Assembly (NCBI GenBank): GCA_905478765.1
Contig: CAJQJY010000010.1
Coordinates: 1 to 64,000 of the forward strand
Origin: an uncultured Flavobacteriales bacterium
Lineage (GTDB): Bacteria; Bacteroidota; Bacteroidia; Flavobacteriales; BACL11
DNA length: 64,000 bases
Direction: 5' to 3'
In this document: positions 4,765 to 18,606 of the stretch, piece after piece
How the letters are laid out: every line of letters starts with the position of its first letter
Numbering within the stretch: position 1 is the first letter of the stretch
Program-made: the position numbers and the translations under genes
The notes under the pieces: generated by a model
The model's input: the letters and a program-made list of their open reading frames with translations, nothing else
Databases searched by the model: none
What the model was told of the DNA's origin: nothing

Positions 4765-4789
4765 AACATTTTAGACATTCTATTTTGTT

Positions 4790-4797
4790 TATATTTG
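4790..4797 (+). promoter_or_regulatory. -7 element upstream of DUF4199 gene
   Basis: TATATTTG is a perfect TAnnTTTG match 26 bases before the ATG at 4824. No clear TTG was found at the right distance upstream. Confidence 0.5.
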
Positions 4798-4823
4798 CCA
4801 CTATTAATTTTAAAATAAAACAG

Positions 4824-5345
4824 ATGGATACTAAGAAATTTGCAATGAACTATGGAGCTATGTTAGGCCTTTGCTTAGTTGCTTTTGCAATTATTATGTG
4901 GTCAGTTGGTGCTGATGACAAACAATCAATCATCCCTTCCTTATTAAACAATGGAATCACAATTGCATTTATTGCTTATGCTGTTATTCAGTATCGAGAC
5001 ATTAATAATAATGGTTTTATTACTTATGCTGAATCATTGAAGCTAGGAACTACTGTCGCTTTTTTCTCTTCAATTATCCTGGCTTTCTATCAGTTTATTT
5101 ATATTACTTATCTTGATCCTAAAGCTTTAAGTGAGATAATAAAAATTACTGAGCAAGCTATGTTGGAATCAAACCCTGAAATATCGGATGAAGAATTAGA
5201 TATGGCTTTAGAAATGACAAGTAAGTTTATGCAGCCACATTGGATGATGATAATGGGAATGCTGGGTGGTACTTTTATGGGCTTTCTTTATTCGTTAATT
5301 ATTTCTATTTTTGTTAAAAAAGAAGATCCAACTTTAATCGCTTAG
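4824..5345 (+). CDS. DUF4199 family membrane protein
   Basis: 173-residue protein with four hydrophobic segments: near residues 10-28, 40-58, 75-97 and 140-160. The N-terminal MNYG-x-MLGL and the YAESLKLG segment before the third helix fit DUF4199. The ATG at 4824 is chosen rather than upstream codons because it follows the -7 element and gives the usual N-terminus. It lies 3 bases before a dolichyl-phosphate-mannose-synthase-like glycosyltransferase, a common pairing in Bacteroidota. Function is unknown; a role in lipid-linked sugar metabolism is only suggested by context. Confidence 0.8.
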   Translation: MDTKKFAMNYGAMLGLCLVAFAIIMWSVGADDKQSIIPSLLNNGITIAFIAYAVIQYRDINNNGFITYAESLKLGTTVAFFSSIILAFYQFIYITYLDPKALSEIIKITEQAMLESNPEISDEELDMALEMTSKFMQPHWMMIMGMLGGTFMGFLYSLIISIFVKKEDPTLIA

Positions 5346-13744: not shown

Positions 13745-16003
13745 TTGAAAAGAATTATTGTTATAATATTATTAGTTCTTCTAGTTTTTCAAGTAAGAAG
13801 TCAATGTGTTGGCTCCCAAACTGCAACAATGTCTCCTGCTGGTCCTTATTCTGCCGGGCAAGTTGTTACGGTTACTTATACTTTAACTAGTTTCACTCAA
13901 CTTAATATTAACTGGATAATTGCTTTTGATATTGACTATGGTGTCGGTTGGTCATCAATCTCTCCTGTTTCAGCACCTGCTAATCCTGGAGGTTCAGGAG
14001 GTTCATGGATATGGGATACTCAAAATACTTACCCAAGTGGATTGAATTTTGGTCCTGGATATCGATTTCAAAATAATGGGAATGCTAATTGGGGAACCTC
14101 TTCAACTGGACCCTTTACATTAAGTTTTCAGTTAGTAGTAGGAAATTCTTGTACTGCTGAGGATTTATCAATTGATTTAAATGTACTTGGTGATTGTCAG
14201 ACAGGAGGTTGGAATAATGGAAGCTGCTGTACTGATCCTTCTTATTCAGTATATAATGGCAATTCAATACCAATAAATAATAATATTTCAATACTTGATA
14301 ATTCTTCAGATATAACTTGTTATGGTTCTTCTGATGGTAGTATATCTTTAAATATTTCTTCAGGTATTAGTCCATTTACTTATTCTTGGTCTAATGGTTT
14401 TGTAACAGCTGCAATAAATAATTTAACTGTCGGTTCCTATGATGTTATTGTTACTGATGCTGCAGGCTGTTCTGCAGCTTTAAATAATATTATTATTAAT
14501 GAGCCGTTAGAAATACAGATTGCTAGTAATACTTCTCCTATAAGTTGCTATGGTTCTTCTGATGGTAGTATATCTTTAAATGTTTCTTCAGGAGTTAGTC
14601 CATTTACTTATTCTTGGTCTAATGGTGCAACTGCAGCTGCAATAAATAATTTAAGTGTTGGTTCATATGACGTTATTGTTACTGATGCTGTAGGGTGTTC
14701 TGCAGCTTTAAATAATAATAATATTAATGAGCCGTTAGAAATACAGATTACTAGTAATACTTCTCCTATAAGTTGCTATGGTTCTTCTGATGGCAGTATA
14801 TCCTTAAATATTTCTTCTGGAATTACCCCATTTACTTATTTTTGGTCTAATGGTGCAACTACAGCTGCAATAAATAATTTAATTGCTGGATCATATAATG
14901 TTATTGCAACTGATGCTACAGGTTGTACATCTAATTTAAATATTATTATTAATGAGGCATCTACTTTAGTTTATGTGCTTAATACTAATGATGCATCTTG
15001 TTTTGACTCTTCAGATGGTAATGCAAGTATTGATCTTCAAGCTGCTTTAACACCAACAGGTACTGTCTCTATGCTAACTTACTGTGCATCTAATCCATCT
15101 AATTCTACACAGCCAGCAACAATTATTGAAGAAGTACAATTAAGTGGTGATAATAATTCCATCACTAATAATTCTGGAGGAGTTAATGATTTTTATGAAG
15201 ATTATACTGCATCTATGTATGCTGACATTACTGAAAACCAATCTTATACAGTTAATGTTACATTAGGCGATTTATCTGGCACCAACTCCTATCTAGGGGG
15301 CGCTAAAGTTTTTATAGATTTTAATATTGATGGTGATTTTAATGATCCTGGTGAAGATATTGGAATAATACCAGTTCAGACATCAGCTGGGGTATTAGTA
15401 CCACTTTCATTTAATGTCCCAACAACTGGAGCTTATGGCCCTACAAGAATGAGAATTGTTTGTCAAAGTACTTATGATTTTACCACTCCTAATGATATAG
15501 GCCCTTGTGAATCTCCTTTTGTGGGAAGTTGGGTAAATCCTTGGTTCGGAGCAACTGAGGATTATTCTATAGTTTTAAATAACCCCAATGTCAATGCTAC
15601 TTATTTATGGTCTACAGGTCAAATTACAGATAGTATTTATGCATTATCTGCTGGAAATTATACAGTAAGTATTACTGATGATAATGGGTGTTTAACAATT
15701 GAAAATTTTACAATTTCATCTAATGCGCAACTTTCAGTAATTGCGAGTGCTAATCAAGCTATATGTAATGGATTTTTACCAAATAATCTGACGGCAAATG
15801 GAAGTGTTTCAGGAACTTATTATTGGACTCCAGCATCAGATTTTATAAATCCAAATATTCAAAACCCAGTCTTTGCTAATGGATTAACAAACTCTACTAC
15901 ATATTCTGTTAATTTTACTGATAATAATGGGTGTATAGCAATAGATACTGTAGATATTATAATTTTCCCTATAACTACAACTCAGCCAATAAGTCACAAC
16001 TAA
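13745..16003 (+). CDS. Surface protein A: SprB repeats, inserted GEVED domain, C-terminal PISHN tail
   Basis: 752 residues, TTG start at 13745, signal peptide 1-20 (FQVRSQ). Order: a unique Cys-rich N-terminal domain (21-180); SprB repeats at about 185-253, 260-330 and 337-403 (CYGSSDGSISLN ... YSWSNG ... VGSYDVIVTDAxGC); the first half of a fourth repeat (about 412-432); a GEVED domain (about 440-612, with KVFIDFNIDGDFNDPGEDIG and GATEDYSI); the second half of the fourth repeat (615-657); an Ig-like domain (665-745). It ends TTTQPISHN. No T9SS sorting domain is present. It is first of three tightly spaced genes (12-base gap to B). SprB repeats are known from gliding adhesins; a tip or adhesin role here is inference. 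Confidence 0.85.
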   Translation: MKRIIVIILLVLLVFQVRSQCVGSQTATMSPAGPYSAGQVVTVTYTLTSFTQLNINWIIAFDIDYGVGWSSISPVSAPANPGGSGGSWIWDTQNTYPSGLNFGPGYRFQNNGNANWGTSSTGPFTLSFQLVVGNSCTAEDLSIDLNVLGDCQTGGWNNGSCCTDPSYSVYNGNSIPINNNISILDNSSDITCYGSSDGSISLNISSGISPFTYSWSNGFVTAAINNLTVGSYDVIVTDAAGCSAALNNIIINEPLEIQIASNTSPISCYGSSDGSISLNVSSGVSPFTYSWSNGATAAAINNLSVGSYDVIVTDAVGCSAALNNNNINEPLEIQITSNTSPISCYGSSDGSISLNISSGITPFTYFWSNGATTAAINNLIAGSYNVIATDATGCTSNLNIIINEASTLVYVLNTNDASCFDSSDGNASIDLQAALTPTGTVSMLTYCASNPSNSTQPATIIEEVQLSGDNNSITNNSGGVNDFYEDYTASMYADITENQSYTVNVTLGDLSGTNSYLGGAKVFIDFNIDGDFNDPGEDIGIIPVQTSAGVLVPLSFNVPTTGAYGPTRMRIVCQSTYDFTTPNDIGPCESPFVGSWVNPWFGATEDYSIVLNNPNVNATYLWSTGQITDSIYALSAGNYTVSITDDNGCLTIENFTISSNAQLSVIASANQAICNGFLPNNLTANGSVSGTYYWTPASDFINPNIQNPVFANGLTNSTTYSVNFTDNNGCIAIDTVDIIIFPITTTQPISHN
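14321..15004 (+). repeat. Three tandem 228-base repeats (SprB units) inside gene A
   Basis: The block starting TATGGTTCTTCTGATGG recurs at 14321, 14549 and 14777, a period of exactly 228 bases (76 codons). The first two intervals are nearly identical; the third copy diverges toward its end. A degenerate fourth start lies near 14999. This is a likely site of unequal recombination. Confidence 0.85.
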
Positions 16004-16015
16004 AAATAAAATATT

Positions 16016-17326
16016 ATGAAAACAAAAAGCAAATTTTTAAAAATAATTACACTAAGTATGTTGTTTTTAGTGAGCACTACAATTATTGCTCAAACAAATA
16101 CATCACCAACTCAATTGGTTTGTATTGGATCAACTGAACCCTATTTATTAAATCCATCAAATCCAACATCAAATTACCAATGGGTATTGAATTCTGGAGG
16201 TACAATTATTACAGGTCAAGGTTCTGATGCAATTACTATTGATTGGAATATGGTAGCTGGTGGTCCTCATACGTTAACTGTCACTGAAACAGATGCAAAT
16301 GGGTGTGCAGGTTTACCAAAAACAGTTGATGTAACTTTGAACATGATTGATGATGCTACTTTTATATTAACTGATTATTGCGAGGGATCTGCAAACTCAG
16401 CAACTTCAATTATTACTGCAGGGGGTGCATTTAATTTTAATCCACTACCAACAGCAGGAGAGACAATAAATACTACAACAGGTGAGATAATAGGAGGTAT
16501 TGCTGGAAACACTTATCAGATTGAGCATATTACATCTGGAGTTTGCCCTGACAACTCATTACAATCTGTAAATGTAAATCCTTTAGATGATGCTACTTTT
16601 GTATTAACAGATTATTGCGAGGGTGCTACAAATTCAGCATCTGCAATTATTACTTCAGGGGGTGCATTTACTTTTAATCCATTGCCGACAAGCGCAGAAA
16701 CTATCAACGCAACTACAGGAGAAATAACTGGGGGAGTTGCAGGAACATCATACTCAGTAGAATATATAACAGCTGGAGTTTGCCCTGATTATTCAATAGA
16801 AACTGTAACAGTTAATAATTTAGATGATGCTGCTTTTGTATTAACAGATTATTGCGAGGGTGCTGCAAATTCAGCAACTGCAATTATTACTTCAGGGGGT
16901 ACTTTTAATTTTAATCCATTGCCGACAGGTACAGAAACAATTAACGCAACTACAGGAGAAATAACTGGGGGAGTTACAGGAATATCATATTCAGTAGAAT
17001 ATATAACAGCTGGAGTTTGCCCTGATTATTCAATAGAAACTGTAACAGTTAATAATTTAGATGATGCTTCATTTGTTTTGACAGATCATTGTGTAGGATC
17101 AGTAAATTCAGCAACGGCTATTGCAACTGTAGGAGGTAGCTTTGTGTTTAACCCCATGCCAATTGGAGGAGAATCTATTAATTCTTTAACTGGAGAAATT
17201 ACAGGTGGACTTTCAGGTATTTCTTACACGGTTGAGTATTCTACAACAGGCGTTTGTCCTGATACACAATCACAAAATGTTTTAATTTATACAACTCCAG
17301 CAACAGGTCCTATATTCCATAATTAA
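16016..17326 (+). CDS. Surface protein B: N-terminal PKD-like domain, four 79-residue repeats, PIFHN tail
   Basis: 436 residues with signal peptide 1-26 (STTIIAQ). Residues 33-105 form a PKD-like/Ig-like domain (VCIG ... YQW ... GQGSDAITI ... ETDANGCAG) homologous to residues 23-96 of protein C. Four tandem units start at Asp112, Asp191, Asp270 and Asp349, each about DDAxFVLTDYCEG ... NPLPT ... TGEITGG ... YSVEYITAGVCPD. The protein ends TPATGPIFHN, like the end of protein A, and has no T9SS C-terminal domain. It sits 12 bases after A and 2 before C. A repeat-built shaft subunit is the simplest reading (inference). Confidence 0.85.
   Translation: MKTKSKFLKIITLSMLFLVSTTIIAQTNTSPTQLVCIGSTEPYLLNPSNPTSNYQWVLNSGGTIITGQGSDAITIDWNMVAGGPHTLTVTETDANGCAGLPKTVDVTLNMIDDATFILTDYCEGSANSATSIITAGGAFNFNPLPTAGETINTTTGEIIGGIAGNTYQIEHITSGVCPDNSLQSVNVNPLDDATFVLTDYCEGATNSASAIITSGGAFTFNPLPTSAETINATTGEITGGVAGTSYSVEYITAGVCPDYSIETVTVNNLDDAAFVLTDYCEGAANSATAIITSGGTFNFNPLPTGTETINATTGEITGGVTGISYSVEYITAGVCPDYSIETVTVNNLDDASFVLTDHCVGSVNSATAIATVGGSFVFNPMPIGGESINSLTGEITGGLSGISYTVEYSTTGVCPDTQSQNVLIYTTPATGPIFHN
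16349..17296 (+). repeat. Four tandem 237-base repeats inside gene B
   Basis: Units start at 16349, 16586, 16823 and 17060, period 237 bases (79 codons), in frame. Units 2 and 3 are almost identical at DNA level; units 1 and 4 are more diverged. Copy number could change by recombination without breaking the frame. Confidence 0.9.
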
Positions 17327-17328
17327 TA

Positions 17329-18606
17329 TTGCGTAAAACGGGGTTAGTCATATTATTATTTTTTGCATATGTATTTGGAATGAATGCACAAAATTTGGTA
17401 CATCTCTGTTTGGGAGATTCTCATGATTTTGGTATTCCAGCAACATCTGGATCGGTTTATGATTGGAATATTCAAAATAGCTCTATTGCTACAATTATTT
17501 CAGGAAACGGAACGGAACTTATCACTATTAAACTTAATAATGCAGGAGTGTTCAAGTTGGTTGTTCAAGAAACAAATCAAGATGGGTGTTTTGGTTTTGA
17601 TAGTGTAATGGTAGAAATTCATGATTTACCTACTGCAGATATTATAGCACTAGGACCTCTTACTTTTTGTAAAGGTAATAATGTTGATTTGCAACTGAAT
17701 ACTGTTGAATCAATCTTTGCTTGGAATAATGGGGTTAATAACATTTTAAATAATATTACAGAGAGTGGAAATTATTTTGCAACTGTAATGGATAACTATG
17801 GTTGTTCAGTTAATACGAATTCAATTGATGTTTTGGTCGAAGAAAATCTAAATGTAGATTTTACAATAGACGGATTTTGTATTGGGAATCCAACATCATT
17901 TGTAAATAAATCAGTATTAGATACTTTGGCTGTTATGAATTATAGTTGGTATTTGGATAATGGAGTAATTTTATACGATGATAGTACGAGTTATATTTTT
18001 AATGATATGGGAGATTATTCAGTTTCTTTTGTCGCGATTTCTGATATTTCTTGTAAAGATTCTATTGCAAAGGATTTTACAATTTTCGGAAACCCTGAAG
18101 CTAATTTTACTTATAATCCTTTTACTGTTTCTACTTTGTACCCGCAAGTAAGTTTTACAAATACTTCATTAAATGCTACTCCAATTTTATGGACTTTTAA
18201 TGACACTACTACCTCTCTTGATGAAAATCCAGCGCTTTCTTTTTATGACCCAGGAATACATGAGGTATGGCTCACAGTAGCAGATGATAATAGATGTATT
18301 GATTCTATTCAAAAATATATAAAAGTTTATTATGATTATGTTGTGCATGTGCCAACTGCATTTACACCTAATGATGATGGTAATAATGATTCTTTTGGGC
18401 CAAGTGGTTGGAGAATGGAGAAGTATCAAAGTTATCAGTTTATAATCTATAACCAATGGGGAGATAAAATATTTGAAACTACTGATGTCTTAGAACAATG
18501 GGGTGGAAAAGGTGCTCCTACTGGTGTTTATAGTTGGGTATTACTCATTACTGATGAACTAGGTGCAGTAAGAAAAGAAAATGGATTGGTTACTTTGATA
18601 AGGTAA
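17329..18606 (+). CDS. Surface protein C: T9SS type B sorting-domain protein
   Basis: 425 residues, TTG start, signal peptide 1-21 (FGMNAQ). Residues 23-96 match the N-terminal domain of B. Further Ig/PKD-like domains follow (about 97-170, 172-252, 255-332; e.g. GNYFATVMDNYGC, DMGDYSVSF). The last about 88 residues are a T9SS type B domain (gliding motility-associated C-terminal type): VPTAFTPNDDGNND, then FIIYNQWGDKIFET, then PTGVYSWVLLITD. It is the only member of the operon that can be attached by the T9SS in the usual way, so it is the likely base or anchor. Its stop abuts the convergent lolA stop with no spacer. Confidence 0.9.
   Translation: MRKTGLVILLFFAYVFGMNAQNLVHLCLGDSHDFGIPATSGSVYDWNIQNSSIATIISGNGTELITIKLNNAGVFKLVVQETNQDGCFGFDSVMVEIHDLPTADIIALGPLTFCKGNNVDLQLNTVESIFAWNNGVNNILNNITESGNYFATVMDNYGCSVNTNSIDVLVEENLNVDFTIDGFCIGNPTSFVNKSVLDTLAVMNYSWYLDNGVILYDDSTSYIFNDMGDYSVSFVAISDISCKDSIAKDFTIFGNPEANFTYNPFTVSTLYPQVSFTNTSLNATPILWTFNDTTTSLDENPALSFYDPGIHEVWLTVADDNRCIDSIQKYIKVYYDYVVHVPTAFTPNDDGNNDSFGPSGWRMEKYQSYQFIIYNQWGDKIFETTDVLEQWGGKGAPTGVYSWVLLITDELGAVRKENGLVTLIR

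Follow-up and report, generated by a model that had tools for sequence, protein, structure and literature searches.

Three adjacent genes from an uncultured Flavobacteriales bacterium, here called A, B, and C, probably encode separate subunits of one surface adhesin, joined by their C-terminal tails into a non-covalent chain that is exported through C. They lie in the first 64,000 nt of contig CAJQJY010000010.1 (assembly GCA_905478765.1), the stretch referred to below as the window. Once the subunits have been exported by Sec, the N-terminal Ig/PKD-like domain of one would be completed by the C-terminal tail of the one before it, which would supply the missing strand A. The outermost subunit, A, would consist of a swappable binding domain and a tail, with no acceptor domain; B would have Ig repeats forming a rod between an acceptor domain and a tail; and in C an acceptor domain would be followed by PKD domains and a terminal type B sorting domain of the type IX secretion system (T9SS). 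This last domain would carry C through SprA, with B and A riding along, after which C would stay bound to a PorP/SprF-like outer-membrane protein. The function of the cassette is probably adhesion or surface display.

Tails and acceptor domains

The basic layout had been proposed in a first-pass annotation of the window, and most of it holds. The three genes are co-oriented, with the coordinates, strand, and gaps of 12 and 2 bases exactly as given there, and all three have signal peptides that are typical when judged by eye. The type B sorting domain reported for C alone was recovered by Pfam (CHU_C, 48.7 bits), although C falls just below the cut-off for TIGR04131 (32.1 bits; cut-off 35). Neither CHU_C, TIGR04131, nor any other sorting domain was matched in A or B by the Pfam and TIGR04131 searches. 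To our knowledge, T9SS substrates described so far carry their own sorting domain. The N-terminal domain said to be common to B and C is Ig/PKD-like in both, with a PKD_6 match for B (28.6 bits; cut-off 25) and a weak one, under the cut-off, for C (22.7 bits); no solved structure was matched to B by sequence search. The common tail of A and B is likewise present, as TTTQPISHN and PATGPIFHN, which share the form [P/G]-I-x-H-N.

In this genome, such a tail is peculiar to A and B. Among 338 distinct open reading frames (ORFs) of at least 100 aa in host loci, the ending I-x-H-[NWFYD] occurs 35 times, where 0.06 would be expected, and always in A or B. When the whole 1.6 Mb genome was scanned for P-I-x-H-x-stop, 14 places were found; a long frame precedes the pattern only at A and B, and the others follow open frames of 53 codons or fewer. 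Wherever the contig permits a check, the tail adjoins a C gene. The Ile is kept in 62 of 62 aligned A and B tails. A Gly and a Pro stand at fixed places in all 31 B tails, which is not the case in A tails, except for the Gly in two phage examples. The two sets can be separated as distinct classes (label-swap p of 0.0005 in hosts and 0.001 in phages).

The tails also resemble sequence found inside longer proteins. A “..P-x-T-G-P-I-x-x”-type sequence joins adjacent Ig domains covalently in tandem-Ig proteins. Where domains of this family form covalent arrays, the domain-to-domain junction reads “ITVNPLPVAAGTITGTATV|CQG”, and between the first two Ig domains of C in an orthologous locus (L069) it reads “IHDLPQPNIFASGLISF|CEG”. 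The B tail, “..VIPNPTPGPIFHN*”, matches the stretch before the Cys of the next domain, while mature B and mature C begin only ~10 and ~6 residues, respectively, before their first Cys, both without the Ile position. Judged by sequence, the tail thus looks like an interdomain linker plus strand A of the following domain, severed at a gene boundary.

Structure predictions of the junctions were made with AlphaFold2 (AF2) on read-through translations of neighboring genes, which place a tail and the next N-terminal domain in one chain; the tool folds single chains. For the B-to-C junction of L069 (last Ig domain of B, tail, and N-terminal domain of C), the mean predicted local distance difference test score (pLDDT) was 84 and the predicted template modeling score 0.64, with tail residues 95–96 in beta pairing. 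Complete single PKD domains can be superimposed on the tail and C domain taken together: the ColG PKD domain 4aqo (86 aa) over 82 residues at Z 10.0 and 1.9 Å (model 86–200 to chain 795–880), and 1l0q over 84 residues at Z 9.5 and 2.1 Å (model 88–203). The tandem Ig domains of GhpA (9flp) cover both domains of the model (161 residues, Z 10.0, 3.0 Å). On the simplest reading of these alignments, the B tail occupies strand A of the C domain in the model; docking was judged from the beta pairing and the alignments. The A-to-B junction was modeled from the window itself (last Ig domain of A, tail, read-through, and whole B). Here only the N-terminal domain of B was confidently predicted (pLDDT ~90). 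It aligns with PKD, Ig, and cadherin folds at middling Z and, with no tail docked, the ColG PKD domain 2y72 aligns only from residue 803 onwards.

Several points weigh against a chain joined in this way. The A tail remained undocked in its model (pLDDT ~37, from an alignment with few paired rows). The B-to-C model is tethered by read-through, which raises the chance of docking, and is a single-chain model without a negative control; the tail itself reaches a pLDDT of only ~64–70. Given the ~10 residues before its first Cys, the N-terminal domain of B may be partly self-complete, and the difference between A and B tail classes could be paralogue inheritance rather than a sign of two interfaces. 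The His is not invariant, with PPPIVTN and GPIIFN in a second family. The arrival of A and B at the cell surface is something we infer. The first-pass proposal that tails dock into N-terminal domains therefore stands in part: conservation, the likeness to covalent Ig-Ig linkers, and the B-to-C prediction support a coupling of tail and domain, while the A-to-B joint was not resolved by prediction. By the same scheme, the A tail would dock into B.

Variation of the cassette in hosts and phages

B homologues are found in 25 of 60 related genomes. Read as far as the contigs reach, the order guaA, LysM gene, A, B, C, lolA (convergent), ftsK recurs in ~17 genomes of the family. Lengths range widely for A (200–1046 aa) and B (190–578 aa), with the tails and N-terminal domains retained, and C is ~425 aa in most genomes. 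In a second family the cassette occupies this locus too, with VIPPPIVTN as the A tail and NPGPIIFN as the B tail; the His is thus not essential, and P-I is kept. In two of its loci (L146, 8705–13159; L148, 3543–8042) an extra CHU_C protein of 1480–1640 aa lies between the LysM gene and A. The LysM gene directly adjoins lolA in four genomes without the cassette (L208, L217, L221, and L224), so this is a cassette that comes and goes; nor was it found at the lolA loci of several large-genome families.

The N-terminal domain of the window A does differ from that of B and C, as first described, but it is not unique: 20 of 396 genomes of the order have it, and so do phage cassettes, where the closer A proteins share 54–61% identity with it. 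Elsewhere the A N-terminus is exchanged: one genome has an L-type lectin domain there (3.6e-48) and another a CUB domain, both with the tail unchanged. The two loci concerned are L022 (6049–8865) and L026 (8821–11961), one with the lectin and one with the CUB domain. Since the N-terminus is swapped (lectin, CUB, phage-type, and others) while the tail stays constant, A can be placed at the outer end as a putative binding tip, in agreement with the first-pass annotation. The repeats of B change in kind and number between genomes. The anchor is kept: CHU_C is retained in C across genomes, and the first-pass placement of C as the T9SS-anchored base is supported.

Fused versions also occur. By established reasoning, parts found apart in some genomes and joined in others should work together. 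In two genomes (L206, 5193–8897; L207, 2931–6944) a single protein of 1234–1337 aa replaces A and B before C. It ends in EIPTPGAIGF or EIPTPAAIGF, giving what amounts to a two-part version. In one family the A-type domain belongs to a chain of 1255–1373 aa that has CHU_C at the end or close to it (confirmed by Pfam for L149). Such chains, whose ends carry or resemble CHU_C, lie at L149 2036–5851, L150 5868–9989, and L153 6796–10563, each beside another CHU_C protein.

Besides marine Flavobacteriales, some phages of marine Bacteroidota carry the cassette. Scans of IMG/VR with the N-terminal domain of B returned 16 and then 23 contigs (L041–L056 and L102–L124), together 25 distinct ones. A, B, and C are all present on 22 of them; on the remaining three the contig breaks off in the cassette or beside it. 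Some are clearly T4-like, and one (L117) is 297 kb long. The surroundings are those of phages, with UvsX-like recombinase, DnaB-like helicase, DNA polymerase, SbcC/SbcD-like proteins, DNA ligase, and Hsp20. Two gene orders are seen, A-B-C and B-C-A. The proteins are minimal, at 112–200 aa each: in L041, B has 112 aa (signal, one domain, and tail), C 187 aa (signal, one domain, and CHU_C), and A 199 aa. On L123 the A gene (4783–5280) stops early (..YADGVIYKV) and lacks a tail, with B and C intact. Tail and N-terminal domain, whose co-occurrence in other genomes the first-pass annotation had left to be checked, are found together at A-B-C loci of two families and in phages. In a tree of the A domain, one phage group falls among host sequences and another is separate, with many weak forks.

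A search of the named phage collection with the window B protein gave no homologues. When phage A, B, and C were used instead, two unannotated phage genomes of ~640 kb were the only matches, there as long single-chain proteins. Multi-domain chains of 732–1670 aa matching phage C lie at L070 5431–10443 and L071 2163–4661 and 12816–15014 (LR756502.1 and LR745206.1), and the single-chain proteins of these phages have ends resembling type B sorting domains. It may be guessed that the phage versions coat, mask, or re-label the infected cell.

Alternatives to a fixed three-part chain

An A-(B)n-C filament, in which B docks into B and polymerizes to a pilus-like fiber of variable length, was also part of the first-pass annotation, and for that form of the proposal there is no support. 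B does combine a tail with an acceptor domain, its tail has a core in common with the A tail, and the B and C N-terminal domains are homologous, to the point that the B-domain model also picks up most phage C proteins. Against it, the A and B tails fall into distinct classes in both hosts and phages, with Pro and Gly invariant in B. One lineage pair has a single tailed protein in place of A and B, a rod is already present as the Ig repeats inside B, the minimal phage B consists of a single domain, and there is no sign of B-B contacts. “Shaft” fits these internal repeats rather than repeated B subunits, and the filament is considered unlikely.

A second possibility, also considered unlikely, is that the tail is a short sorting or processing signal in its own right, bringing A and B to the surface without the help of C. 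Its position at the very C-terminal end of two secreted proteins, in an organism with a T9SS, would suit such a signal. No other protein in the genome ends this way, however; the tail stands beside a C gene on every contig that permits a check, its sequence matches that of an Ig-Ig linker within a chain, and known C-terminal sorting domains are whole domains (PMC12618676, PMC10994853). An independent sorting signal was rejected on the tail's restriction to A and B in this genome, its place beside C, and its likeness to Ig-Ig linkers.

It would also be very surprising if A, B, and C were three unrelated surface proteins that are simply co-transcribed, their tails having no partner role. The interaction rests on prediction, and the model of the A tail with B was not resolved, but the three genes are strictly linked in hosts and phages, even where rearranged to B-C-A, and docking of the B tail to C is predicted. 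Scarcely credible, finally, is decay of a recently broken adhesin gene into fragments no longer working together: covalent versions exist and tail and N-terminal domain look like two sides of a cut Ig-Ig junction, but every part comes with a start and a signal peptide of its own. This was rejected since the same three-way split, with conserved tail ends, is kept in two families and several phage lineages.

Export route and comparison with known systems

The genome encodes SprA (2702 bits) and six PorP/SprF-like proteins, four of them from genes adjoining CHU_C genes and two from genes standing alone. The lone ones (C14:81018–81881 and C19:9660–10559) are candidate carriers for C. There is no porP/sprF gene adjacent to C, the neighbors of the cassette being the LysM gene and lolA. 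In this C resembles those type B substrates of F. johnsoniae that are orphans and use one common orphan carrier (PMC12618676); type B proteins remain bound to their PorP-like carriers (PMC9143113). A and B would pass SprA docked to C.

No report of this three-part assembly was found among the papers covered by the search. The type B gliding adhesins of F. johnsoniae (SprB/SprF) share with it the type B domain (in C), Sec signals, SprB repeats (in A), and the presence of SprA and SprF-like genes. SprB, however, is one giant chain encoded beside its own sprF, whereas here there are three chains of 425–752 aa with one sorting domain. SprC and SprD of F. johnsoniae are a possible parallel, and SprC travels on the gliding track (PMC12635249).

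Pili assembled by strand donation, whether chaperone-usher or type V (P. gingivalis Mfa1, PMC5789003), resemble the assembly predicted here in that a donated beta strand completes the next subunit. They differ in route, which here would be the T9SS; in donor, here what is usually the interdomain linker plus strand A of tandem-Ig proteins; and in being homopolymers, the order here being fixed and heteromeric as far as visible. In chaperone-usher pili the donor strand is N-terminal, and the donor proposed here is C-terminal. No chaperone or usher genes were seen around the cassette. A, B, and C have no lipobox by sequence, and Pfam gives PKD/Ig families rather than fimbrillin, unlike a type V fimbria.

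Tandem-Ig surface proteins (GhpA of Aureispira, PDB 9flp and 9fly; PKD_6/Ig_7 arrays) have an Ig-like fold and a junction geometry similar to that of the model, but there the junction is covalent and here it would lie between polypeptides. Phage-encoded T9SS cargo is known from one case, Cryophage, with type A sorting domains (PMC7468147). The products of phage genes would use the host T9SS in both, although those of Cryophage are type A sorting-domain proteins rather than a three-gene type B surface assembly.

Whether this is a T9SS structure built by strand donation, in which proteins lacking a sorting signal are exported docked to one type B substrate and a minimal phage form remodels the host surface, is evenly balanced at present. 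If A and B do arrive at the surface docked to C, cargo of several proteins must pass through the T9SS, and scans for T9SS substrates by sorting domain would overlook such passengers; the tail would give a simple sequence rule for finding them. A swappable tip on a fixed tail would be a natural modular display system. With proteins down to 112 residues, the copies in T4-like phages make phage remodeling of the Bacteroidota surface directly testable. Positions of the features are collected in Table 1.

Table 1. Genes A, B, and C and their parts, in window positions.
Feature	Position	Strand	Remarks
Gene A	13745..16003	+	752 aa, TTG start; putative tip subunit; orthologues at same locus
A signal peptide	13745..13801	+	By eye; ..VRS|QC, mature protein would begin QC
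A N-terminal domain	13802..14272	+	No Pfam family; common to phage A proteins and other families
A SprB-type repeats	14303..15034 (approximate)	+	PF13573, 4 stretches, 2e-35
A GEVED domain	15305..15571	+	PF20009, 2.6e-11
A last Ig_7-like domain	15740..15955	+	PF19081, E 0.01 (weak)
A C-terminal tail	15974..16000	+	TTTQPISHN; used in terminal-motif counts and tail classes
Gene B	16016..17326	+	436 aa; putative rod/adaptor subunit
B signal peptide	16016..16090	+	By eye; ..IIA|QT
B N-terminal PKD_6-like domain	16091..16342	+	AF2 pLDDT ~90, Ig/PKD fold; proposed A-tail acceptor
B Ig-like repeats	16343..17296	+	Number and type differ across genomes
B C-terminal tail	17297..17323	+	PATGPIFHN; proposed donor strand for C
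Gene C	17329..18606	+	425 aa, TTG start; putative base
C signal peptide	17329..17388	+	By eye; ..MNA|QN
C N-terminal PKD_6-like domain	17389..17619	+	Proposed B-tail acceptor; modeled in orthologue L069
C two PKD domains	17851..18333 (approximate)	+	PF18911, PF00801
C type B T9SS sorting domain (CHU_C)	18346..18606	+	PF13585, 48.7–53.1 bits, cut-off 27

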